Shown: positions 3,538 to 21,405 of the stretch, in pieces
Layout of the letters: each line of letters begins with the position of its first letter
Position numbering within the stretch: the stretch's first letter is position 1
Assembly: GCF_037969765.1 (NCBI RefSeq)
Contig: NZ_CP150207.1
Coordinates: forward strand, 2,032,001-2,096,000
Length of the DNA stretch: 64,000 nucleotides
Reading direction: 5' to 3'
DNA from: Paenibacillus sp. FSL W8-0186
Lineage (GTDB): Bacteria > Bacillota > Bacilli > Paenibacillales > Paenibacillaceae
Translations under genes and position numbers: made by a program
Notes under the pieces: generated by a model
Database searches by the model: none
What the model saw: only the letters and a program-made list of their open reading frames with translations
What the model was told of the DNA's origin: nothing

Positions 3538-3841
3538 TGGCTGCACACCCTTTCATTATTATGAATCGGCATCAACTGGAACCAAAAAAGCCGCTCCGAT
3601 TCAGCATCGCCTTCCTTAATTAAGAAAGGGATGCTTGTATCAAAGCGGCATGTGCTCCATGACCGATTACATGTTGAAATGAATGACATCTAAGGTAAGT
3701 ATAGAATGAAACTGTATTAGTCAGCAAGCTTCAAGTGTCCTCATCTGGATTTGAAAAATTAACTTTTTATCCGATAAAAGGAATATACGAGTTCACGACG
3801 TGAATTTCAAAAGTCTATTTGAGAGGCGGATCTACTTCATC

Positions 3842-5176
3842 ATGACAATCTGGGAGAGACTGGACATTGAGCCGACCCATGACCTGAAAACCATAAAACG
3901 CGCCTATGCGAAAATGCTGCAAGTTTACCATCCGGAAGAGGATGCCGAAGGCTATCAAGCTCTACGCGAGGCTTATGACAGGGCGCTGAAATTCGTCAAG
4001 GAGCAGCAGGTAAGGAGAGACGCTGGGGCGGAAGCGTCAGCGTCAGCATCAGCATCAGTGTTAGGGGCAGAAGTGTCTATAGATGTTTCGTTAGCTTCAA
4101 CAGGGCAAGCAGCGGCACCATATGAAGACAGCTCCGATCATGCCGATAACTGGGGCAACCCGGAAGTCGACACATATGATGATGAGTTAAAAATCAGCAC
4201 CGTTCAGCAGTTTATAGAAAAAGCGGCAGATCTATATCAACATTTTCCCTCACGAATTAACCCCGAGCTGTGGATGCAGCTGTTGAACTCGGATGTTGCC
4301 TGGGACACCACAAATAGACGGAGTTTAAACACGGCAATGCTCGATTTTGTACAAAGCCATAGGTTTTTTCCTTCAGCGATATGGAGACTGCTGGATGGAT
4401 TTTTCCATTGGAAAGAGGAAATGAGGGAATCGCTGGAGCCTCATATCGTGGAGATTCCAGCTTCTTTTAAAAAATATTATCTGGAACAGCTCAACGAAGA
4501 CGGATTAAATTATGAATACCTGCTTCGAGCGGAAAATATCAATATAGATGAGTTTTTGCAGTATCGCGAGCATGGTTACCGGTCGCTTAAGGAGAACAAG
4601 CTGGAGGAAGCGGGACAAGCTCTGAAGCTCGCTCTTCAATTATTTAACGATGATCCTGATTTGTTTCGTCTGCTTGGTGAGTATTACTTTAGAACATCGC
4701 AATATGGCCTAGCGGTAAATGTATTAACAAAAGAATTGCAGATGCGGCCAGGTGAATTCGAAAGTCATTACTTACGGGCTAAGTGTTATTACTACGGCAG
4801 ACAAATAGAACTGGCTCTGCTGGACTGCGAAATCATCTTAAAGATGTGGCCCGCACATCTTGAGACAAGAATTCTACTGGGGCATTGCTTTAGTGCGCGG
4901 GAACAGCGAGAGCAGGCTCTGGCCAGCTATAGATATGTCCTCAATGTGACCGATGCAAGTGACATAGGAGATTATATGATCCGTAAACAAGCTTTACAAG
5001 GTATTTTTGAAATTGAAGAAAGAGACAGTATCCAATCTAAATCAATTTATTCGGAGCGTGAGTTAATCGAACACAGTCAAAGTCCGGAAGGAAGCCGCGA
5101 TCAGAGAAGTTCAGTCAATTATGGGCTACTTATATTTGCTGTCTTGTTCATATTGAAATTCATCTTCACAAGATAA
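3842..5176 (+). CDS. J-domain/TPR protein with HPE motif and C-terminal anchor (paralogue 1)
   Basis: A 444-residue protein. Residues 1-55 form a J domain (helix II KTIKRAYAKMLQ, loop, helix III YQALREAYDRALK), but the Hsp70-stimulating HPD is HPE (30-32). A low-complexity Ala/Ser linker follows, then a conserved helical region (about 125-230), TPR-like repeats (about 235-370) and one C-terminal membrane helix (LLIFAVLFILKFIF), suggesting a tail-anchored protein facing the cytoplasm. ATG 3842 is preferred over GTG 3800 because MTIW aligns with the paralogue at 18805 and a GAGAGGCGG site precedes it. Its partner Hsp70 is unknown; no dnaK-like gene lies nearby. Confidence 0.75.
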   Translation: MTIWERLDIEPTHDLKTIKRAYAKMLQVYHPEEDAEGYQALREAYDRALKFVKEQQVRRDAGAEASASASASVLGAEVSIDVSLASTGQAAAPYEDSSDHADNWGNPEVDTYDDELKISTVQQFIEKAADLYQHFPSRINPELWMQLLNSDVAWDTTNRRSLNTAMLDFVQSHRFFPSAIWRLLDGFFHWKEEMRESLEPHIVEIPASFKKYYLEQLNEDGLNYEYLLRAENINIDEFLQYREHGYRSLKENKLEEAGQALKLALQLFNDDPDLFRLLGEYYFRTSQYGLAVNVLTKELQMRPGEFESHYLRAKCYYYGRQIELALLDCEIILKMWPAHLETRILLGHCFSAREQREQALASYRYVLNVTDASDIGDYMIRKQALQGIFEIEERDSIQSKSIYSERELIEHSQSPEGSRDQRSSVNYGLLIFAVLFILKFIFTR

Positions 5177-5290
5177 TTTTGCTTAGCTACATACATAAAA
5201 AAGATTGTTCTCACCCGTATAGTATGCCGTATTAGTTAATGGGAATAAATGGACGTAACGCATGAATTTCACGTATACGGGGGGCAACGC

Positions 5291-6010
5291 ATGCATATTG
5301 ATTGGTCACAAACCCAGGTCTACAATACCATCATGTCCGTCGCAACAGGGATCGCGCTGCTGATGCTGGTCCGCTTCAGCCAGCATGTCACCCGCGGAGA
5401 TAAAATCAGCCTCGAAGGCTGGTCTATTGGCTTTGCCGTTCCCGGTTTTATTCTAACCTTGACGGGTGGAGCGATGACGCTTACCTGGCCTTTGTCAAAA
5501 ATCGGGTTTCCGTTCGATGACATCATATTTGGCGAGCCTACACTGGCTTTTGGCGTCATGCTGCTGGGCGGAGCTATTCTGATTTGGCGCAGATCGAACC
5601 TCCATCATAAGGCGGAGCTAAGCGACAAGGAAGCCAAGCAGCAATCTGGAGTGCTGACTTCACAGCTCATCGACATGATTCGGCCTCTGTCCTATTTTGC
5701 TGCCGCCATGGGGCTGGCGCTGATATCCATTGCTATCGCTGGCGTATATTATCAGTTATTCGCAGCGCCGCCCGAAGAGCCGATATCAGGACGGTTTGCG
5801 GATTATCCGCTGCTGGAGGCCTCTTTTATATCTGGTCTCTATGCCGTTACCGGCATCGGGGCGATTCTCCTGCCATTTTCCCTGGCCACAAGAAATCCAA
5901 TAGTCACCCGCATTATGGGGTTATGCTGGAGAGTCACGGGGATACTCTTCGTCCTGTTCGGGGCGATGAATTACTTTACGCATATCGGGCTTATCATTAA
6001 CACGATGTGA
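5291..6010 (+). CDS. DUF981-family membrane protein
   Basis: A 239-residue protein with about six hydrophobic segments separated by short charged loops, one basic/acidic loop near residues 95-120 (HHKAELSDKEAKQQ). The pattern, including the early QVYNTIMSV segment and the FPFDD loop, matches my memory of DUF981, a family of uncharacterised bacterial and archaeal membrane proteins. Start ATG 5291 is chosen because a GGGGGC site sits just before it; an in-frame ATG at 5249 has no good site. It lies 114 bases after the J-domain gene on the same strand, so co-transcription is possible. No function can be inferred. Confidence 0.65.
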   Translation: MHIDWSQTQVYNTIMSVATGIALLMLVRFSQHVTRGDKISLEGWSIGFAVPGFILTLTGGAMTLTWPLSKIGFPFDDIIFGEPTLAFGVMLLGGAILIWRRSNLHHKAELSDKEAKQQSGVLTSQLIDMIRPLSYFAAAMGLALISIAIAGVYYQLFAAPPEEPISGRFADYPLLEASFISGLYAVTGIGAILLPFSLATRNPIVTRIMGLCWRVTGILFVLFGAMNYFTHIGLIINTM

Positions 6011-18804: not shown

Positions 18805-20697
18805 ATGACGGGATTTTTTATGACGATTTGGCAGCGGCTTGGCATTGAGCCTACAAATGATATCAAGGAAATTAAGCGGGCGTATGGCAAGCAGCTTCAG
18901 ATTTATCATCCAGAGGAAGACGCCGAGGGGTATCAGGCGCTCCGTGAGGCATATGACCGGGCAATAAAGCTAGTTAATCAACGGATGGATCGTTCAGATG
19001 ATCACATGCCTGTTCAAACCATAGAGCGAGACGAGCCAGAAGATCAAGAAGATCAAGAAGAACAGGAAGGCGATGAGAACGCGGCCGTTTTCATTTCTAG
19101 GCTCTCGCGTGATGCTGGGTTTGTTTTTTCGGAACCGGAGCTTTATGAATTTGGGGATTCCTCTGAAAGTGTCGATGAGTTCATAGCACAAGCAATCGCC
19201 ATATATGACCATTTTCCAACCCGGATTTCAAGAGACGCATGGATTGAGCTGCTCAATTCCAAGATAGCTTGGGACATCTTTAGTAAAGATGAAATTAACA
19301 GGCGAATGTTCGAGGTACTAAAAGACCGCTGCTATTTGCCTCAAGAAGTGTGGCAGCTGCTGGAGGGCTTCTTTGGATGGAGACACGAGTTTACGGCACA
19401 TTGGAAAGAGCAAGAATACGCTGGAGCCGATCCCTTCCTGGAGTACTATGACAAGCAGCTGGCCGAACCTGGGCTAAGTTATGAGTTTTTGTTAGGTGCG
19501 GGCAATATCGATTATGACCGATTTTTAAGCTGCCGGTATAAGGGCTTTCAAGCACTATTCGTCAATGATTTGAAGGAAGCAGGTAGATTTCTTGAAGAAG
19601 CCTACGGTCTCTTTGCCGATGATCCCGATCTGCTCCGTCTGCTGGGCGAATATTATTTGCGAAAGGGGAACGAGGAACAAGCGCTGCAGGCTTACGGGAG
19701 GCAGATCAGAGTCGTGCCGGATGAGATGGAGGGTTACCTTGCCCGGGCTCGCATCCTCTTCCGGCAAGGACAGTATGCCCAAGCTGTAGAGGACTATCAA
19801 TGGGTGCTGTCTCGTGTACCCCACCTGATGGAAGCCAAGCTGTCGCTGGGCCATTGCTGGTTGAAGCTAGGCCAAGAAGACAGGGCCAGAACATATTATC
19901 TGGAGGTGGCAGAGCAGGCAGATCCCGCTTCTCTGGAGGCGGTACAGGCGCTGCAAGGATTGGCTCATGCTCACCCTGAACATGTAAGAAAGCTGTACAA
20001 TGAACGGAAAGCAGCCCGGCGGGAGAAGTTCAAACAGAAATTTTCCTGGCTGCAGATCTGTGTGTTTGTATTGACGCTGCTCAGCTTAGGCTGGTATGTG
20101 CAATCCCTGATGATGGAGGCAAACGTTATGAAGACCGCTTCGGTTACCAGCCTTGATCAACTGGAGAATACACCAAAAAACAGCCATGTAGCCATAACTC
20201 TTACGGACGTATTGGACGTTGGTTTAGGCCTGTATGAACTGCAAATGGGCGAAATGAAGGGAACTACAATGATTCAGGGGAGATCCGCATCTGAGAAGAA
20301 TTTGCAGTATTACGGCTTTGCCAAGCGCTATATTTACATTGGAAGCTTTGAAGGGCAGCACATCGTATTTCTATCGGAAAAATGGCTTGGGGACAGCGCA
20401 TCGCTGCTGATGCGCCCCGTGACCATCACCGGATATGCCCGTATGCTGAAGTCCACGGATGTTGAGTCTGCCGTCTCTTTTTCACTTCTTAGTCTGCCCG
20501 CCGAAACCGAGAAGCCTTTAAAGCTTTATCCGAAATATATCGAAGAAGGTCCGCAGCTTCAGAACAAGTCTATGGTTGGCCGGGGCAATTCGTTGGCTTT
20601 TTATTTATTCCTATGTTTTGTAACTTGGGGTCTTCGTTTACATATGAAAAAGAAAAAAGCGTCGAAAGCTGCTTATTCGGAAAGGACAAGCCTATGA
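18805..20697 (+). CDS. J-domain/TPR protein with HPE motif and outside domain (paralogue 2)
   Basis: A 630-residue paralogue of the protein at 3842. The J domain (about residues 6-60) again has HPE (35-37) for HPD. An acidic linker (Glu/Asp/Gln-rich, about 70-92) leads to the shared helical region (FIAQAIAIYDHFPTRI, AWIELLNSKIAWD) and TPR-like repeats (about 235-390). Unlike paralogue 1 it continues through a membrane helix (about 415-435), a roughly 160-residue domain likely outside the cell, and a second helix (about 595-615) with a lysine-rich tail. ATG 18805 follows GGGAGAG. Its last bases overlap the DUF1266 gene (ATGA). Confidence 0.75.
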   Translation: MTGFFMTIWQRLGIEPTNDIKEIKRAYGKQLQIYHPEEDAEGYQALREAYDRAIKLVNQRMDRSDDHMPVQTIERDEPEDQEDQEEQEGDENAAVFISRLSRDAGFVFSEPELYEFGDSSESVDEFIAQAIAIYDHFPTRISRDAWIELLNSKIAWDIFSKDEINRRMFEVLKDRCYLPQEVWQLLEGFFGWRHEFTAHWKEQEYAGADPFLEYYDKQLAEPGLSYEFLLGAGNIDYDRFLSCRYKGFQALFVNDLKEAGRFLEEAYGLFADDPDLLRLLGEYYLRKGNEEQALQAYGRQIRVVPDEMEGYLARARILFRQGQYAQAVEDYQWVLSRVPHLMEAKLSLGHCWLKLGQEDRARTYYLEVAEQADPASLEAVQALQGLAHAHPEHVRKLYNERKAARREKFKQKFSWLQICVFVLTLLSLGWYVQSLMMEANVMKTASVTSLDQLENTPKNSHVAITLTDVLDVGLGLYELQMGEMKGTTMIQGRSASEKNLQYYGFAKRYIYIGSFEGQHIVFLSEKWLGDSASLLMRPVTITGYARMLKSTDVESAVSFSLLSLPAETEKPLKLYPKYIEEGPQLQNKSMVGRGNSLAFYLFLCFVTWGLRLHMKKKKASKAAYSERTSL

Positions 20698-21344
20698 TTA
20701 GAGCATTGAGAAGTCGGATTTTTTATTGTGCGATGACTGAAGCACTGTTTTTGAATGACCCGCTGAACGATCACAGCGTCGGGGGGTTGAATCGGCTCAG
20801 CGTGCTGTCCAGCCAATTGCTAGACAATTGGATGTATCATCACTATGGAATAAAGAGTTCAATAACTTGCGACAGAAAACTGAAATGGCTGCTGTACGAG
20901 GGATACAGATCAGAGTTCAGGCAGTTGAGGGATAGTCTGGCTGTCCTGCCAATGACGGAGCGCGACCTGTACATTGCCAGTCTTCCAGACTCCGATGAGT
21001 GGAAGAGCAAATTGAGGCGGGTTAGCCAGCTCATGCCTTATCTGGTCCGGCCGGGGATTGCGGCTTATGATTATGCATTATATCTGGCCGTCGCTCAATC
21101 CGGCGTCAGATTGGGTTATTTGGCTTTCAATGAAGCGCGGATCTTTTCCCGAGAAATTGCCAAGCTGGCTCAGAGCCAGTATGAGAGCTGGGACGAATAT
21201 CATCTGGCCTGCATCGCCGGTATGCATTATCTTAGCGGCAACGATAAATCTCAAAAAAAGGATTACAGTACGTATATGCACGTGCGAATGCTGTCCCGAA
21301 GGCTCAGTCCCAGCAAGCGGATCAGTTGGCGAGCCAAATTGTAG
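20694..21344 (+). CDS. DUF1266-family protein, coupled to J-domain gene
   Basis: A 216-residue soluble protein whose C-terminal half matches the DUF1266 pattern as I know it: DYALYLAVAQSGVRLGYL, then an EARIFSREIAKLAQ helix, SWDEYHLACIAGMHY. The N-terminal half has WLLYEGYRSEF, also typical. The ATG at 20694 shares bases with the TGA of the J-domain gene, so translation is probably coupled. E. coli carries DUF1266 genes (ybeR, ybeU) beside the J-domain genes djlB and djlC and the Hsp70 gene hscC, as I recall, which makes this pairing meaningful. The molecular role of DUF1266 is unknown. A strong terminator follows. Confidence 0.75.
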   Translation: MIRALRSRIFYCAMTEALFLNDPLNDHSVGGLNRLSVLSSQLLDNWMYHHYGIKSSITCDRKLKWLLYEGYRSEFRQLRDSLAVLPMTERDLYIASLPDSDEWKSKLRRVSQLMPYLVRPGIAAYDYALYLAVAQSGVRLGYLAFNEARIFSREIAKLAQSQYESWDEYHLACIAGMHYLSGNDKSQKKDYSTYMHVRMLSRRLSPSKRISWRAKL

Positions 21345-21371: not shown

Positions 21372-21405
21372 AGAAGGCTTGATCACTAGATCAAGCCTTC
21401 TTCCA
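21372..21405. terminator. Bidirectional terminator after the DUF1266 gene
   Basis: A perfect 12-bp stem (GAAGGCTTGATC/GATCAAGCCTTC) with loop ACTA and short A/T flanks serves both the DUF1266 gene and the convergent lipase gene. Confidence 0.85.

Follow-up and report, generated by a model that had tools for sequence, protein, structure and literature searches.

HscC systems and the Paenibacillus gene pair

HscC is a divergent Hsp70 whose role is treated as open in a review according to which its ATPase is stimulated by the J-domain protein DjlC and not by DnaJ, CbpA or HscB (PMC8215388). DjlB and DjlC, the partners of HscC, have HPE in the J-domain, seemingly the only tolerated replacement of the HPD motif according to a second report (PMC13254874). 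In Escherichia coli K-12, hscC lies beside two gene pairs, ybeR-djlB and ybeU-djlC, whose members overlap by 4 bp and in which a gene of the Pfam family DUF1266 accompanies a J-protein gene; this arrangement had been named correctly in the initial annotation of the DNA described here. We report a pair of the same two families in a window of 64,000 nucleotides from Paenibacillus sp. FSL W8-0186 (contig NZ_CP150207.1, positions 2,032,001 to 2,096,000 of the forward strand), in which the gene for a J-domain/tetratricopeptide repeat (TPR) protein overlaps a DUF1266 gene. Comparison of many such loci indicates that DUF1266 follows the J gene rather than hscC, and DUF1266 may be a subunit of the J protein.

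The window pair resembles the E. coli locus in its HPE J-domain, an HscC-type Hsp70, the 4-bp overlap and, at the level of the family, a helical region after the J-domain. It differs in gene order, which is reversed, and in the position of hscC, which is opposite and adjacent in E. coli and unlinked to the pair here. TPRs, and an additional region beyond the membrane segment, are found in the window J protein, whereas E. coli DjlC is tail-anchored (PMC8215388). In Dickeya fangzhongdai, hscC, a YbeS-DUF805 gene and a DUF1266 gene stand on the consecutive numbers ND14b.1127-1129; the J protein there carries DUF805, with no TPR listed, and in the passage concerned the three genes appear without comment in a table of species-specific genes (PMC6329079). 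A triad in the window's own genome (locus L005) has the same three families and the same J-then-DUF1266 order, and is complete with HscC where the window pair is not.

Two other chaperone systems are comparable in part. HscA and HscB act on IscU, a scaffold client encoded beside them; a specialised Hsp70, a dedicated J protein and a third protein are encoded together there too, but the Hsp70 and J families are different ones, and DUF1266, unlike IscU, can be fused to its J protein. CbpA, which carries the HPD motif, works with DnaK. It resembles the window J protein in having a small partner, CbpM, encoded in its operon (PMC13254874).

The enteric locus has appeared in print in several contexts. 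In Salmonella Typhimurium LT2 the genes ybeQ-R-S-U-V have been described as one gene cassette (PMC6935094), ybeU-djlC is listed as one transcription unit of the Crl regulon in E. coli (PMC6469107), and a genome-reduced strain has a deletion from ybeL to gltI and insH, which takes in the whole locus (PMC10652928). The DUF1266 gene EC042_RS03510 of E. coli 042 is upregulated in an hns mutant, by a factor of ∼308 at 25 °C and of 4 at 37 °C (PMC7582179), and an insertion in the E. coli gene ynjI is listed in another study (PMC10044804). The passages concerned mention the neighbourhood in passing and do not interpret it as a chaperone module, and no description of a three-part HscC-J-DUF1266 module was found in the literature covered, outside which most subscription papers fall. 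The initial annotation had proposed a conserved, undescribed chaperone-related module; this is supported by occurrence in two phyla and co-occurrence with HscC.

Layout of the gene pair

The pair comprises the following features, all on the plus strand:

18805..20697, plus strand: J-domain/TPR protein gene, 630 amino acids (aa), of the DjlB/DjlC-like HscC co-chaperone family, with HscC its probable partner
18820..18981, plus strand: J-domain with HPE replacing HPD, residues 6-59, from alignment and BLASTP
19168..19419, plus strand: helical domain after the J-domain, about residues 122-205, boundaries approximate
19624..19956, plus strand: TPR region, about residues 274-384, PF14559 at 46.4 bits plus other TPR families
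20044..20100, plus strand: predicted transmembrane segment, residues 414-432, from a Kyte-Doolittle scan
20590..20640, plus strand: possible second membrane segment, residues 596-612, by eye and below the cut of the scan
20681..20686, plus strand: AAAGGA, Shine-Dalgarno-like, inside the J gene and 7 nt 5' of the DUF1266 start, by inspection
20694..20697, plus strand: ATGA stop/start overlap, predicted to couple translation of the J and DUF1266 genes
20694..21344, plus strand: gene for a DUF1266 (PF06889) protein of 216 aa, counted from the ATG at 20694, predicted all-alpha

Both reading frames are present, and nucleotides 20694-20697 are common to the stop of one and the start of the other, as first annotated; the open reading frame mechanically called for the DUF1266 gene begins earlier, at 20613. 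A Shine-Dalgarno-like AGGGAG is found by inspection upstream of the J gene start. A scan for promoters and terminators gave counts not above those in shuffled sequence. A hairpin can be seen at 21374-21399, but its T tail is poor and we do not call it a terminator.

Identity of the two proteins

Residues 9-50 of the window J protein score 23.1 bits against PF00226 (DnaJ), under its curated cut-off of 27.8; E. coli DjlC is likewise low at 19.3 bits, and none of the nine scanned J proteins of the type reaches the cut-off. Despite this score, the assignment of the N-terminal domain as a J-domain holds, because it is similar to that of DjlC (43% over 60 residues, E 5e-13, in a single BLASTP comparison that aligns the J-domain only) and because a profile of 13 such J-domains matches the solved structures of DnaJ, CbpA and DNAJA, with a best E of 2e-6. 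Its loop reads HPE and not HPD, the motif of class A and B DnaJ proteins. Of 121 J matches, some from loci counted twice, 114 have HPE and none has HPD. The motif is lost altogether, with NNN in its place, in an HscC-J-DUF1266 triad of a distant member of the Bacillota (G284; L038 8635-11603).

The J proteins of the two phyla align beyond the J-domain, over 224 columns in a single comparison of family profiles (hhalign probability 95.7, E 9.7e-9). The helical domain is common to the window J protein and the J protein of the same-genome triad, and family-level profile comparison places it also in the DjlB/DjlC-type proteins of the Pseudomonadota. The region, in the window (19168-19419) and in its relatives, is conserved and tryptophan-containing in both Bacillota and Pseudomonadota, and no separate Pfam match was obtained for it in the scanned proteins. 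TPR families match the window J protein above their Pfam cut-offs. In its description as a J-domain/TPR membrane protein, the TPRs are supported by Pfam and the J-domain by homology, at a sub-threshold score; for the membrane part, one segment is predicted. At least one such segment is predicted in 34 of the 62 J proteins that have a DUF1266 partner.

PF06889 matches the product of 20694-21344 with 88.1 bits, against a cut-off of 27, so that its assignment to DUF1266 stands. AlphaFold2 predicts the protein alone as all helices, with a predicted local distance difference test score (pLDDT) of 84.2 and a predicted template modelling score (pTM) of 0.84. A search with its sequence alone returned only 7 close relatives; an alignment-based DUF1266 search returned 77 matches, enterobacterial or from Paenibacillus where a name is shown. 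In plasmids, YbeU finds 12 records, from E. coli and Erwinia persicina only, and the DUF1266 protein of the same-genome triad finds none.

Distribution in the order and in other phyla

DUF1266 and HscC were searched in all 198 genomes of a survey of the order, and HPE-type J genes in the 37 genomes that hold DUF1266 or HscC. Hidden Markov models for the neighbours were seeded with 5 J, 2 HscC and 5 DUF1266 sequences, and those for J and DUF1266 were then rebuilt from the matches. There are 73 DUF1266 matches, in 36 of the 198 genomes and 11 of 43 genera. HscC separates cleanly from DnaK (37 matches of at least 682 bits, the next at most 401), as do the HPE-type J genes from the tier below them (63 genes of at least 81 bits, the next at most 30).

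An HPE-type J gene lies within 3.5 kb of 60 of the 73 DUF1266 matches, in 10 of the 11 genera, against 0.18 adjacencies expected under random placement; conversely, 60 of the 63 J genes have a DUF1266. The two genes are tightly spaced: among 60 J-then-DUF1266 pairs of the Bacillota, the nearest DUF1266 start is at -22 to +46 nt relative to the end of the J gene in 58 (-4 in seven of them), with two outliers at +80 and +238. HscC is close by in most cases: DUF1266 is within 7 kb of 33 of the 37 HscC genes, and J within 3 kb of 34. Both HscC and DUF1266 are present in 32 genomes, HscC only in one (G375), DUF1266 only in four (G342, G365, G376 and G381), and neither in 161, giving a Fisher p of 2e-31, which is not a true probability, the genomes being related and by-genome counts not phylogenetically independent. 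In G381, where no HPE-type J was found, a 116-aa piece of HscC and a 78-aa piece of DUF1266 (L055 6875-8246) form an apparent module remnant.

A pattern scan of named genomes yielded 56 loci. It is biased towards relatives of its Erwinia query, is not an even draw of the Pseudomonadota, shares some Paenibacillus loci with the order survey, and can miss DUF1266 genes without J, as E. coli ynjI shows. In all 33 loci of the Pseudomonadota, from Erwinia, Pectobacterium, Pseudomonas, Gilliamella, Escherichia, Klebsiella and Marinobacter, the genes stand in the order DUF1266-J-HscC, with HscC broken into pieces at L107. A further 14 loci of the Bacillota have J, then DUF1266, with HscC at five. Gene order is thus reversed between the phyla and adjacency kept. 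With 60 of 73 DUF1266 matches in the order and 47 of the 56 named loci having a J gene, the enrichment that such a survey had been proposed to look for is present.

In one genome of the same class as the window genome and of another family (G178), the parts are joined: an HPE J-domain, TPRs, a predicted membrane segment and DUF1266 form a single protein of 669 aa (L036 6501-8510), encoded directly behind HscC.

DUF1266 follows the J gene

Three DUF1266 genes occur in the genome that contains the window (G000), a single contig of 5.66 Mb. One stands in the complete triad (L005 7087-11771), a row of HscC (568 aa), J/TPR (772 aa) and DUF1266 (213 aa) genes 1.6 Mb from the window pair; its HscC, at 415067-416770 of the genome, falls in the HscC class and is distinct from DnaK. 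The J-domains of the two loci are 63% identical over 54 residues, whereas the DUF1266 proteins are only ∼17% identical. The third DUF1266 gene (L004) stands alone and encodes a predicted N-terminal membrane segment. The HPE-type J genes also number three, those of the triad and the window pair and an orphan at 3800-5176 of the window.

The separation of the window pair from HscC has parallels. Three genomes (G323, G329 and G432) keep J and DUF1266 paired while their HscC gene is at a different place and has neither of the two next to it; the window resembles them, with the pair intact and HscC at another locus. Two J-DUF1266 pairs stand behind a single HscC gene at seven loci, in genera g3, g232 and g234. 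Because pairs persist far from HscC, and because a single HscC can have two of them, we conclude that DUF1266 follows J rather than HscC. In one two-pair row, the J-domain of the second J gene (L095 8677-10083) lies before the first ATG, GTG or TTG of its frame; this gene apparently has an unusual start or is decaying, and its J-domain was left out of the pair counts.

The sequences of the partners vary together. With each DUF1266 assigned the J protein encoded upstream of it (62 pairs), the similarity matrices of the two correlate with a Spearman coefficient of 0.78, which is 0.83 for the part of J outside the J-domain and 0.58 for the J-domain alone, short J-domains giving noisier scores. 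Paralogous pairs match in 595 of 810 comparisons across 19 genomes, where 44% is expected.

Proposed role of DUF1266 and alternatives

The reading we favour for the window pair, at about even strength, makes DUF1266 an adaptor subunit dedicated to the J protein; DUF1266 would present a particular set of clients to an HscC encoded elsewhere in the genome. The window J protein would drive HscC rather than DnaK, since in E. coli the HscC co-chaperones are distinguished by HPE. DUF1266 would work through the J protein rather than through the Hsp70, as most J genes have a DUF1266 of their own while one HscC can serve two pairs. It would act on the cytosolic side of the membrane, because it follows a predicted membrane hairpin in the fusion and because 61 of the 62 partnered DUF1266 proteins have no predicted membrane or signal segment. 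The window pair would then work in trans with the HscC at 415067-416770. Put more broadly, and with confidence somewhat short of even, DUF1266 would be a new kind of Hsp70 co-chaperone, a J-bound adaptor that makes the HscC machine three-part, with J-DUF1266 pairs as swappable client-recognition units and the window pair acting in trans.

The other roles that can be envisaged for DUF1266 fit parts of the same evidence. Were it a dedicated client, folded or remodelled by HscC and J as IscU is by HscA and HscB, its fast divergence (∼20% identity) and the allotment of one DUF1266 to each J gene (60/63) would be expected, and the isc operon supplies a precedent. A client fused to its J protein in one natural chain would be unusual, however, and DUF1266 proteins that stand alone, bear signal peptides or resemble lipoproteins would have to fold without HscC; we regard a client role as unlikely. 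Somewhat less probable again is a regulatory role, in which DUF1266 would mask or tune the J-domain in the way that CbpM blocks that of CbpA. CbpM and CbpA are a described operon-coupled pair (PMC13254874). The window DUF1266 is indeed a small, predicted helical protein whose gene overlaps that of J, but DUF1266 similarity tracks the rest of J above the J-domain, allowing for the noisier J-domain scores, and in the fusion DUF1266 is at the far end, beyond the membrane segment.

E. coli HscC has no GrpE signature (PMC8215388), and DUF1266, with its predicted all-alpha fold and co-occurrence with HscC, would suit the missing nucleotide-exchange factor. That DUF1266 follows J and not HscC, with two pairs to one HscC and pairs far from any HscC, speaks against this, as do three HscC-J loci without DUF1266 and the argument, in the same review, that HscC needs no exchange factor (PMC8215388); an exchange factor is accordingly a slim prospect. 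We give least credence to the view that the genes are neighbours only, travelling on shared operons without common function. Shared ancestry does account for much of the matrix correlation, and the unit may spread as a block; this view has to accommodate reversed order with adjacency kept, near-complete pairing in both directions, pairs retained without a local HscC, and the fusion. What favours a J-bound part is the fusion, together with the almost one-to-one match of J and DUF1266 genes and the fact that their pairing does not depend on where HscC is encoded.

Several observations weigh against the adaptor reading. No Hsp70 match lies within the window, and the pair has no HscC in cis. In 43 triads DUF1266 correlates with J at 0.85 and with HscC at 0.84, hardly better, the outcome expected from shared ancestry alone. 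AlphaFold models the J, TPR and DUF1266 parts of the fusion each with confidence but with an overall pTM of 0.57, so that packing of DUF1266 on the rest of the chain is not predicted. No membrane segment is predicted in 28 of the 62 J proteins that have a DUF1266 partner, for which reason the membrane was dropped as a common theme and is not part of the common mechanism. HscC with a J gene of HPE/NPE type occurs without detectable DUF1266 in G375, G204 and G289 (loci L158, L162 and L163), so DUF1266 is not essential to the HscC-J pair. At the level of the phylum, DUF1266 is found in 10 of 299 genomes and HscC in 7, and five of the 7 HscC genomes hold DUF1266. Five of the seven phylum-level DUF1266 genomes outside the order have no J, and only in G178 and G284 is J fused to or beside DUF1266. 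J is likewise absent near 13 of the 73 DUF1266 matches in the order and at 9 of the 56 named loci (seven of the Bacteroidota, one Brevibacillus and one Paenibacillus contig end). The third DUF1266 gene of E. coli, ynjI (L164 3832-4872, 346 codons), lies between gdhA and topB with no J or HscC beside it. DUF1266 stands behind predicted signal peptides in four distant genomes of the Bacillota (L034, L037, L039 and L040), in proteins that also carry copper-amine-oxidase N-terminal (Cu_amine_oxidN1) or TPR domains, and the N-termini at the two Bacteroidota loci read (L146 and L152) are lipoprotein-like.

Because such J-less and signal-peptide forms exist, and ynjI with them, the DUF1266 domain is not only a chaperone part; judged from their N-termini, the secreted and lipoprotein-like forms may show the domain in extracytoplasmic use, unconnected with J proteins. 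The loci of the type found in G375, G204 and G289 are useful natural exceptions. Two further candidates were set aside. A docking role for the TPRs was dropped, Pfam showing no TPR in DjlC or in the scanned J proteins of Erwinia, Pseudomonas and Marinobacter. The DnaK genes ∼3.4-3.9 kb from DUF1266 at four Bacteroidota loci (L152, L154, L156 and L157) were judged plain synteny within one genus, because the Hsp70 is DnaK-like (∼40% to HscC) and because genes intervene in L152, the one inspected.

Other genes of the window

The orphan J gene belongs to the same J family as that of the pair:

3800..5176, plus strand: HPE-type J/TPR gene, the second in the window, lacking a DUF1266 partner, start possibly at 3842

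It is followed by a gene for a DUF981 membrane protein (5249-6010). In G388 the likely counterpart of the orphan (L062 13382-14710) is only ∼3 kb from the J-DUF1266 pair; the corresponding distance in the window is greater and takes in chemotaxis-like genes.

Implications

DUF1266 is named in Pfam as a protein of unknown function, and the adaptor reading would give it a testable role. The role of HscC and the function of DUF1266 merge into one question, testable in E. coli K-12. If J-DUF1266 pairs are swappable units, this would explain how one specialised Hsp70 serves several tasks.

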